A stretch of DNA of 64,000 nucleotides from Clostridium tyrobutyricum DSM 2637 = ATCC 25755 = JCM 11008. GTDB taxonomy: Bacteria > Bacillota > Clostridia > Clostridiales > Clostridiaceae. Numbering within the stretch: the first letter of the stretch is position 1; each line of letters opens with the position of its first letter. Shown piece by piece: positions 60,750 through 62,570 of this stretch. The position numbers were made by a program, and so were the translations under genes. Under the pieces are notes generated by a model. The model saw only the letters and a program-made list of their open reading frames with translations, was not told the origin of the DNA and ran no database searches. The stretch lies in NCBI RefSeq assembly GCF_000359585.1, contig NZ_APMH01000010.1, positions 1 through 64,000 on the forward strand, given 5' to 3'.

Positions 60750-60897
60750 AATTACACATCCTCTTTTCAAATTTTCATTTATGAGGCAAATTATAAATTA
60801 AATTTTTATTATAGTCAATATAATTTGATTCATATTTAGATATATTGGCTATTTTTTTTATTAATTTGTTAAAATGATATTGAGGACATTTGTAAAA

Positions 60898-61749
60898 TTA
60901 ATTGTTAAAATCCTTGACCCATATATTCATATCTTCAAATTCTCCATATATATTGCAATTGTTTATCAATCTTCCTCTGAATTTATAGTTGTTTTTACTT
61001 AAGGCAAAATTAATGCTCGTACATGTAGCACGTGATAAACTGTATATGCCCATGTATCCCATAGATATCAAGTCTGATTCAAAAGAGGATATAATATTAG
61101 ATACTACTCCTTTATTTCTATAGTTTGGATGGGTTGCACAGTTTATTAATTCGGCATTTAAATCTTCTTCATTTAAATATGCTGAAGCTGCACTTATAAT
61201 TTTCCCATTGTATACAGCTGTCTTATACAATATCCTTTTATTCATGTTATCTTTTAAGTATTTCTCGTCAAACAGTGGAGATGGGCATTCGAAAAATACT
61301 TTTGAGAAAAGTTCCGACATCTGTTTTGCATCACGTTTTTCCGCATATCTTATATTATATTTTAAAGTAGTATCAGGTACAAAAGTGCTTTCTGCATTTA
61401 AACTCTGTATTAAAATTAAATTTTCCATTGAATGCTTGTTATATAGTTTTCTCTTTTTGCTAATAAAATAAGACATACAAAATGCACTTTCACCTTTGAA
61501 ATAACTGTCTATTTTACCCTCCAGTTTAAATCCTGCTTTAATGAAATTCTTAAATGATGCGGCATCACAATTACAAATAATTTTGCCTAAATGCTGCCTT
61601 GAAGCAAAGTGTACCAATCTTTTTATATTTTGAACTGATATATTATGAAAGTCAACTATTTTTGCAAGGCTGTTTACGTAATCCACGTATATTTTTGATT
61701 GATTTATTTTAGCATAATAATTATCTGATTTATAATTAGTTAGTATCAT
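60898..61749 (-). CDS. ablB: Putative beta-lysine N-acetyltransferase
   Basis: A 283-residue protein with a C-terminal GNAT domain; ATHPNYRNKGVVSNIISSFE is its acetyl-CoA loop and STFVPDTTLKYNIRYAEKRD marks the AblB-type middle. The N-terminal half, KIYVDYVNSLAKIVDFHNIS then IVQNIKRL-like helices, is specific to this family. AblB acetylates beta-lysine to N-epsilon-acetyl-beta-lysine, an osmoprotectant. The usual partner ablA (lysine 2,3-aminomutase) is not in the window. AAGGGGGA precedes the ATG at 61749. A cyclic di-AMP riboswitch lies upstream, fitting an osmolyte gene. Confidence 0.88.
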   Translation of the reverse strand: MILTNYKSDNYYAKINQSKIYVDYVNSLAKIVDFHNISVQNIKRLVHFASRQHLGKIICNCDAASFKNFIKAGFKLEGKIDSYFKGESAFCMSYFISKKRKLYNKHSMENLILIQSLNAESTFVPDTTLKYNIRYAEKRDAKQMSELFSKVFFECPSPLFDEKYLKDNMNKRILYKTAVYNGKIISAASAYLNEEDLNAELINCATHPNYRNKGVVSNIISSFESDLISMGYMGIYSLSRATCTSINFALSKNNYKFRGRLINNCNIYGEFEDMNIWVKDFNN

Positions 61750-61797
61750 TACACTGTTCCCCCTTGCGTGTAATTTATTAATTCCCAAAAATAATAA

Positions 61798-61822
61798 GCT
61801 GCAGAGAGAAGTCTCTGCAGCT
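61798..61822 (-). terminator. Terminator of the ydaO riboswitch expression platform
   Basis: Perfect 11-base stem AGCTGCAGAGA / TCTCTGCAGCT, followed on the minus strand by TTATTATTTTT, between the riboswitch and ablB. Binding of cyclic di-AMP should favour it. Confidence 0.8.
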
Positions 61823-61867
61823 CAATTTTAGGTATATTAAAAATAAAATTCATAATTTACATACCAA

Positions 61868-61993
61868 AAAACTTCTCTTCAACGCTTACGAGATTAGCTG
61901 ACGGATTCGGATCGAAGAAATTAACCCTACTTGTTTTAATACAAGATTCACCCCAAAAGTGGTTCTCCCGTTCATAATTGATTAAGCGCTTTC
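61868..61993 (-). ncRNA. ydaO/yuaA (cyclic di-AMP) riboswitch
   Basis: On the minus strand the conserved blocks occur in order: GCGCTTAATCA, GAACGGGAGAACCA, TTTTGGGGTGAATC, a variable hairpin, TAGGGTTAATTTCTTCG, ATCCGAATCCGTCAGCTAAT, CTCGTAAGCG. This is an almost complete match to the ydaO consensus. The class turns genes off when cyclic di-AMP is high and usually governs potassium uptake, osmolyte and cell-wall genes. The downstream gene is ablB. Confidence 0.95.
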
Positions 61994-62028
61994 AATATTT
62001 ATTTTTACGGTTTAATACTTGTACATAA

Positions 62029-62057
62029 ACATTATCACGTTAATATATGCATGTCAA
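62029..62057 (-). promoter_or_regulatory. Promoter of the ydaO-ablB transcript
   Basis: Minus-strand -35 TTGACA (62052-62057) and -10 TAATGT (62029-62034), spacer 17, about 35 bases upstream of the riboswitch. Confidence 0.7.
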
Positions 62058-62127
62058 TTAATTATATGAAAATTTATTGGAAAAATCAATAATATTATGA
62101 TATAAAGAATTTATGGAGTTGATGTAT

Positions 62128-62421
62128 ATGAGTAATTTTTTAAATAGGGATAAAAGGGTCTATAAATTCAATAAAGATGAAATGATATTGAGAGATTTTC
62201 TTGCAGTGGACAGAACTCTCCTTGCTAATGAAAGAACCCTACTGGCATACATAAGAACAGGGGTGAGTTTAATTGCTGTAGCAATTACTCTTATAAAATT
62301 GTTTGATACCACTTTTACATACGTGGTTGGAATAATTTTTGCAGTTTTAGGTATAAGTGGTATGGTATTTGGTGTATATAGATACAAAAATATAAATGAC
62401 AAGATGAAAAATATAGTTTAA
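62128..62421 (+). CDS. DUF202 (YidH-like) membrane protein
   Basis: A 97-residue protein: DFLAVDRTLLANERTLLAYI followed by RTGVSLIAVAITLIKL is the DUF202 signature, with two to three membrane helices. No established function. GGAG precedes the ATG at 62128. Confidence 0.87.
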   Translation: MSNFLNRDKRVYKFNKDEMILRDFLAVDRTLLANERTLLAYIRTGVSLIAVAITLIKLFDTTFTYVVGIIFAVLGISGMVFGVYRYKNINDKMKNIV

Positions 62422-62570
62422 TAAATGTAGTAATATATTTTATGTTGAGATAAACACATGCCAAATTAAAGTATATTTCACATAATTCTCACATAATTTT
62501 AAGTGAATTTTAAGGAATGATTTATAAAATCTAAATATATGTAATATTTTATAGGAGAAGGTGATATATA

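Follow-up and report, generated by a model that had tools for sequence, protein, structure and literature searches.

A cyclic di-AMP riboswitch ahead of a partnerless, apparently re-specified AblB acetyltransferase in Clostridium tyrobutyricum

Results

In the window, the 64,000-nucleotide stretch of Clostridium tyrobutyricum DNA that was analysed, an ablB-family gene stands alone behind a cyclic di-AMP (c-di-AMP) riboswitch, in a genome without a detectable lysine 2,3-aminomutase (AblA). We propose, at roughly even probability, that a c-di-AMP OFF switch here controls a one-gene osmolyte module and that the acceptor of AblB is probably not beta-lysine and most likely L-lysine. The unit is best read as a riboswitch-(dapB)-ablA-ablB operon reduced to its riboswitch and last gene.

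The ablB gene and its leader

The ablB-family acetyltransferase gene (60898-61749, minus strand) is an intact frame of 283 codons for a protein of 283 amino acids, with an ATG at 61749 and a ribosome-binding site, AAGGGGG, legible at 61759-61765 on the same strand. A longer start, TTG at 61788, is unlikely because it falls inside the T-rich tail of the terminator. Scanned in its TTG-started form of 296 amino acids, the protein exceeds the curated cut-off of the GNAT_ablB equivalog TIGR03827 (219.8 versus 205.1 bits), which upholds the first-pass annotation of an AblB-family gene behind the riboswitch, and this is the lowest score among the over-cut-off AblBs in the family search. The downstream gene (60770-60483, TIGR04076) has its own promoter-like site at 60818-60790. 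Elsewhere in the window, a T-box leader is located at 5774-5523 on the minus strand (119.5 bits), and a subtilase-family peptidase gene (PF00082; 62601-63851, plus strand) adjoins a DUF202 gene at 62113-62421.

The c-di-AMP (ydaO/yuaA) riboswitch aptamer lies at 61868-61998 on the minus strand and matches RF00379 over the full model, positions 1-134, with 108.4 bits (gathering threshold 38, E = 7.1e-25). Beginning 43 bases past the aptamer, an intrinsic terminator (61795-61824, minus strand) consists of a hairpin of 13 pairs followed by TTATTTTT; the stretch 61840-61785 folds with a z-score of -7.5, and none of 200 shuffles was equally stable. The leader is thus an expression platform with its terminator downstream of the aptamer, and the ydaO-type riboswitch and terminator described earlier as standing directly upstream of ablB are confirmed. 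For the promoter placed ahead of them, the candidate is the site TTGATT-17-TATAAT (62061-62089, minus strand), a consensus match alone, at 10 of 12 positions; shuffled versions of this AT-rich region contain such sites about as often (20 observed, 16.6 expected, s.d. 3.9). Transcription of the ablB unit would start near 62054 if this site is used.

The sequence ACTTCTCT, which lies within the terminator loop and 3' arm, is complementary to AGAGAAGT at the aptamer 3' end, so that an antiterminator could form without ligand. In all 24 leaders surveyed of the class I loci defined below (the survey omitted G039a and G084c), a terminator of similar sequence is found 43-56 bases 3' of the aptamer. 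Runs of 5-11 bases complementary to the aptamer 3' end also occur, counted without a chance control. In the available text of PMC9337991, c-di-AMP is an OFF switch before Dehalobacter ablA, where it drives termination with less than 5% read-through in vitro; by analogy, c-di-AMP would turn the window's riboswitch OFF, and the base complementarity points to antitermination as the route. The Na+ aptamer RF03071 was detected neither at gathering threshold in the window nor at up to E = 1 in 60800-62500, and a tandem Na+/c-di-AMP gate was rejected on these grounds. Four further Rfam matches in 60800-62500 were sub-threshold and are regarded as chance.

At high c-di-AMP, with turgor and potassium sufficient, the aptamer would be closed, the terminator would form and transcription would halt before ablB. 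A drop in c-di-AMP would let the aptamer 3' end pair with terminator sequence, so that ablB is transcribed and AblB could acetylate an amine already present in the cell.

AblA is not detected anywhere in the genome

The genome of the window (G000; 3.01 Mb in 76 contigs, 99.99% complete) yielded no match to the AblA model TIGR03820 at E ≤ 0.001 in any contig, whereas the same search was positive in 8 of 14 control genomes including E. coli, in 4 of them over cut-off. The earlier remark that ablA is absent nearby consequently extends to the entire assembly. It had also been asked whether ablA might lie elsewhere under the same control. This was rejected, since there are just two ydaO sites genome-wide, neither before ablA, and no AblA homologue was found. 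The second site, on contig C24, precedes an ORF of 174 amino acids that looks like a cell-wall hydrolase, and the site adjoins a gene that we take for cdaA, which encodes diadenylate cyclase. Across the genus, the remaining ydaO sites stand before a hydrolase-like ORF of 174 residues or a LysM-like ORF of 252-254 amino acids; the latter type is not among the sites of the window's genome. A single ablB and a single dapB (TIGR00036) are present, the latter beside ORFs that, from their likeness, are presumably dapA and asd.

Probable recurrent loss of the partner genes in Clostridiaceae

Genomes are denoted by the G numbers of the analysis, with a, b and c for separate ablB loci. Of 13 species in the genus, 5 carry an ablB that scores over cut-off, either as riboswitch-ablA-ablB (G002, G008, G011) or as riboswitch-ablB with no ablA over or near cut-off (G000, G010). 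Across the family, ablB scores over cut-off in 31 of 187 genomes, 19 of which also have AblA over cut-off and 12 of which lack an intact over-cut-off AblA (G000, G010, G029, G030, G034, G040, G058, G108, G109, G110, G133, G134). In G058 the ablA is a short fossil and in G110, taken as C. magnum, it is interrupted, possibly through a sequencing fault; an assembly gap is unlikely for G133, G134 and G040, as these are single-contig assemblies. Elsewhere, AblB genomes rarely lack AblA. A further 49 were examined, 21 of them taken from an even sampling of 393 genomes in the class and 28 selected, nearly all of these for having no ablA nearby. AblA exceeds the cut-off in 41, a strong homologue falls below it in 4 (G254, G572, G588, G593), and 4 have neither (G277, G292, G576, G581).

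Class I comprises 26 ablB loci in 24 genomes, the window included, at 51-63% identity to the window's protein; the other 15 AblB loci of the family (27-38% identity) were excluded from the class I tree. All class I loci except G084c (25/26) have a c-di-AMP aptamer upstream, and they divide into 13 with a partner gene and 13 solo. Partnered loci are arranged as riboswitch-dapB-ablA-ablB (G031, G039a with an interrupted dapB, G056a, G070, G085, G114b, G143), as riboswitch-ablA-ablB (G002, G008, G011 and G110 with its broken ablA) or as riboswitch-dapB-ablB without ablA (G034a and G058), and both genomes of the last type have another copy of the lysine-synthesis gene dapB elsewhere. The solo loci are G000, G010, G029, G030, G034b, G040, G056b, G084c, G104, G108, G109, G133 and G134. 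Some of them look like second copies: G034 and G056 each hold a solo and an operon copy, and G056b carries a dapB fragment. A decayed second copy of the operon is present in G029, where a riboswitch and dapB are followed by remnants of ablA and ablB (L270, 2205-3822). G104, taken as C. oryzae, has a KamA-like AblA homologue elsewhere, in a cluster with a lysine riboswitch that may serve lysine fermentation.

Several neighbourhoods have further features. In G108 and G109 (L219, 2110-2480; L220, 3695-4070) the c-di-AMP riboswitch of ablB stands back to back with a Na+ riboswitch on the opposite strand, which in G108 faces an ORF of 414 amino acids resembling a Na+/H+ antiporter by likeness. A CLC-type channel gene is found beyond but close to ablB in L059, L056, L058 and L086, in the last three by sequence likeness; that of L059 carries a TrkA_C domain, a domain that binds c-di-AMP in other proteins.

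On a tree of the 26 class I AblB proteins and 5 out-group rows, the state without AblA needs five changes, at least three of them on well-supported branches. The solo state is taken as derived because ablA adjoins ablB in all five out-group rows. Solo ablB as one old paralogue in a single clade was rejected (p-AU = 4e-23); a clade of G000, G010, G108, G109, G133 and G134 was not (p = 0.144), so that there may be fewer independent solo origins than the tree suggests.

Most solo AblBs differ at conserved positions

The window's AblB deviates by R28L, Y155C, T202I, D203N and L223F at five of the 47 columns whose conservation is 90% or more across a set of 47 other AblBs; some other rows deviate equally or more, at different columns (up to seven, in L107). 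When the comparison was confined to these five columns and the window's own sequence was set aside, deviation at one or more of them was seen in 8 of 12 solo and 0 of 13 partnered class I AblBs (Fisher P = 4.6e-4, for columns chosen from the window's protein and with relatedness ignored). A relatedness-aware pair test yielded three independent pairs on supported branches (six on all), with two for, none against and one showing no difference; just three independent pairs cannot reach significance. Among the 69 columns that show no variation in 15 AblA-linked rows, a scan put D191 on top with six events, one being a mild D191E in the partnered G034a; R28 had four, and D203, T202, D193 and G73 three each, one G73 event occurring in the partnered G110. 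The mirror control, 64 columns conserved in 12 solo rows, reached a maximum of three. D193 and G73 were dropped as marker columns because they vary outside class I (D193 is kept in 68 of 106).

AblBs of AblA-bearing genomes keep R28 in 96/98, Y155 in 103/103, D/E191 in 102/103, E200 in 103/103, T202 in 102/103 and D203 in 103/103 cases, in a comparison that excludes solo class I and to which D191 and E200 were added after viewing the class I rows. Here AblA-bearing status was taken from an ablA match beside ablB for 33 rows and from TIGR03820 searches for the rest, and 16 of the 80 collected loci were omitted (15 duplicates of G rows, and L101). Among the 13 solo class I AblBs, R28 is changed in five, Y155 in three, D/E191 in seven, T202 in five and D203 in four; ten have at least one of these columns broken. 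The window's protein has L28, C155, Y191, I202 and N203, and thus departs at all five, a set of columns that was defined in this analysis rather than taken from the literature. E200, which we take to align with the general base of Gcn5, is changed in G010. G034a, G058 and G110, which lack AblA and are dapB-partnered or freshly broken, keep all five columns, as do four distant AblA-less AblBs, one of which is without the R28 stretch. G056b, G084c and G104 deviate even though their genomes hold AblA or KamA elsewhere, so that deviation goes with a solo locus more closely than with a genome that lacks AblA.

These data bear on whether AblB might still acetylate beta-lysine, taken up from the surroundings or from producing neighbours, and act as a salvage enzyme. 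The family is annotated for beta-lysine, all five columns persist in three solo AblBs from AblA-less genomes of the C. beijerinckii group (G029, G030, G040), and G104 has its KamA-like gene in the lysine-riboswitch cluster. However, 12 of the 31 AblB genomes of the family would then rely on external beta-lysine, no importer gene is seen adjoining ablB among the ORFs of the window, five otherwise kept columns are changed in the window's protein and dapB persists in two AblA-less operons. We consider salvage unlikely and favour a changed acceptor: with no recognisable route to beta-lysine in the genome and with substitutions at several conserved positions, this AblB probably acetylates something else, and the earlier assignment of N-acetyl-beta-lysine as the product is not sustained.

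Predicted structure

The predicted structure of AblB (pLDDT 91.7) combines a C-terminal GNAT domain with an N-terminal alpha/beta domain. Structure alignments to RimI, phosphinothricin and ArsN acetyltransferases span residues 129-283, in agreement with a GNAT fold of the modelled C-terminal domain; the order of elements in the N-terminal domain appears to resemble part of a GNAT domain. The strand and helix assignments of the model put Y155 in the loop that connects helices one and two of the GNAT domain. Strand 183-193 carries D191 close to its end, strand 198-206 includes E200-D203, and R28 sits where a strand of the N-terminal domain begins. The acceptor site of GNAT enzymes is commonly shaped by that first loop and by the strand beside the cofactor.

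Alternatively, AblB might now act on an amine that lacks the amino-acid head group, such as putrescine, cadaverine or 5-aminovalerate, and serve polyamine or amine handling rather than osmolyte storage. Each of the four class I lineages without R28 (G000, G104, G108/G109, G084c) also lacks the acidic residue at 191 or 203, which looks like the surrender of a clamp that held a charged head group, and profile positions 29-81 weakly match diamine acetyltransferase (E 0.24-0.26). The riboswitch class and the link to dapB nevertheless point to osmolytes and lysine, and the changes differ between lineages; we judge such a shift improbable.

AblB remains under selection in AblA-less relatives

Pairwise dN/dS of AblB was determined for 17 pairs (Nei-Gojobori with codon bootstrap). 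Seven solo AblA-less pairs (G029, G030 and G040 with one another, G034b with G029 and G030, G108/G109 and G133/G134) gave 0.047-0.126, with upper bootstrap limits of up to 0.21 and dS of 0.15-1.80; the dapB-partnered AblA-less pair G034a-G058 gave 0.102 and four AblA-bearing pairs 0.110-0.197. Solo AblB is thus under purifying selection in AblA-less relatives. Selection likewise acts on the operon dapB of the AblA-less G029, G034 and G058, with dN/dS of 0.085-0.114 in three pairs. G133 and G134 share D191Y and T202A at dS 1.29 and dN/dS 0.115, the two changes presumably being older than their split; G108 and G109 share R28C, Y155S and D203N at dN/dS 0.126.

Selection on the window's own ablB can be gauged from a single, distant pair, G000-G010 (dN/dS 0.175, interval 0.09-0.28; dS 1.59). 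The window's AblB has a branch length of 0.41 on the class I tree and alters 5 of 51 columns that are invariant in the other rows; of the 26 rows, G133 alone (5/50) has a higher share. Conceivably, after the loss of ablA the ablB of this lineage is decaying, and its riboswitch controls a functionless gene. The long branch, the five changes at conserved columns, the lowest over-cut-off TIGR03827 score in the family and the broken or fossil ablA and ablB copies of relatives agree with decay. The intact frame, ribosome-binding site, high-scoring aptamer and strong terminator do not, nor does the strong selection in AblA-less relatives such as G133/G134 and G108/G109. We hold it doubtful that ablB is a relic, and retain the reading of a working enzyme with a changed acceptor.

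Discussion

The leading candidate for the acceptor is L-lysine, which would be converted to N-epsilon-acetyl-lysine, with other diamines ranked behind. L-lysine is favoured on three counts: dapB has stayed behind the riboswitch in two AblA-less genomes that carry another copy of it, lysine had always been the starting compound, and N-epsilon-acetyl-alpha-lysine has been observed as a cytoprotectant (PMC4685198, in its available text). The osmolyte logic of a direct riboswitch-ablB link, put forward at first sight of the sequence, gains support, and we infer the new acceptor, its identity as L-lysine and the osmolyte role of the window's AblB. At family scale we are more tentative, and give somewhat less than even probability to a history in which the operon shed its aminomutase in several Clostridiaceae lineages and recurrent changes at the same few positions led AblB to acetylate L-lysine or some other amine that the cell already contains.

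Should N-epsilon-acetyl-alpha-lysine be the product of partnerless AblBs, the beta-lysine annotation would be wrong for a recognisable subset of AblBs, ablB would become a candidate gene for a solute that has no named gene in the available text of PMC4685198, and a handful of residues would constitute a testable switch between beta- and alpha-lysine. Acetylation of L-lysine or another amine would also place a second and cheaper osmolyte route under control of the same second messenger, and re-specification would provide a natural experiment in how an enzyme changes its specificity.

The ablA-ablB (kamA-yodP) pathway makes N-epsilon-acetyl-beta-lysine in methanogens and bacteria. The window shares with it a member of the AblB family, but has no detectable lysine 2,3-aminomutase and changes in conserved AblB columns. 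Also related are the riboswitch-dapB-ablA-ablB operons of other Clostridiaceae (among them G143, taken as C. homopropionicum, and G114, C. thailandense), which have the same aptamer class, a homologous ablB and a closely similar terminator; dapB and ablA are kept there, whereas the window keeps ablB alone. N-epsilon-acetyl-alpha-lysine is made as a cytoprotectant by an acetyltransferase in Planococcus sp. VITP21 and Salinicoccus hispanicus (PMC4685198). The product that we propose and its one-step acetyltransferase route from lysine are alike, but these organisms are Bacilli and not Clostridia, and the available text of that paper names no gene and makes no link to c-di-AMP.

According to the available text of PMC9337991, a tandem Na+/c-di-AMP riboswitch precedes ablA in Dehalobacter sp. 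CF, and dapB under such tandem switches is also reported. The window resembles the Dehalobacter ablA leader in having a ydaO-class aptamer with its own terminator before a gene for osmolyte synthesis of the acetyl-beta-lysine type. It differs in that ablB stands alone, with no ablA and no Na+ switch ahead found. Our search of mostly open-access literature found no publication on ablB alone under a c-di-AMP riboswitch. c-di-AMP riboswitches before ablA and dapB are known, and what appears to be new is a partnerless and apparently re-specified AblB under such control.
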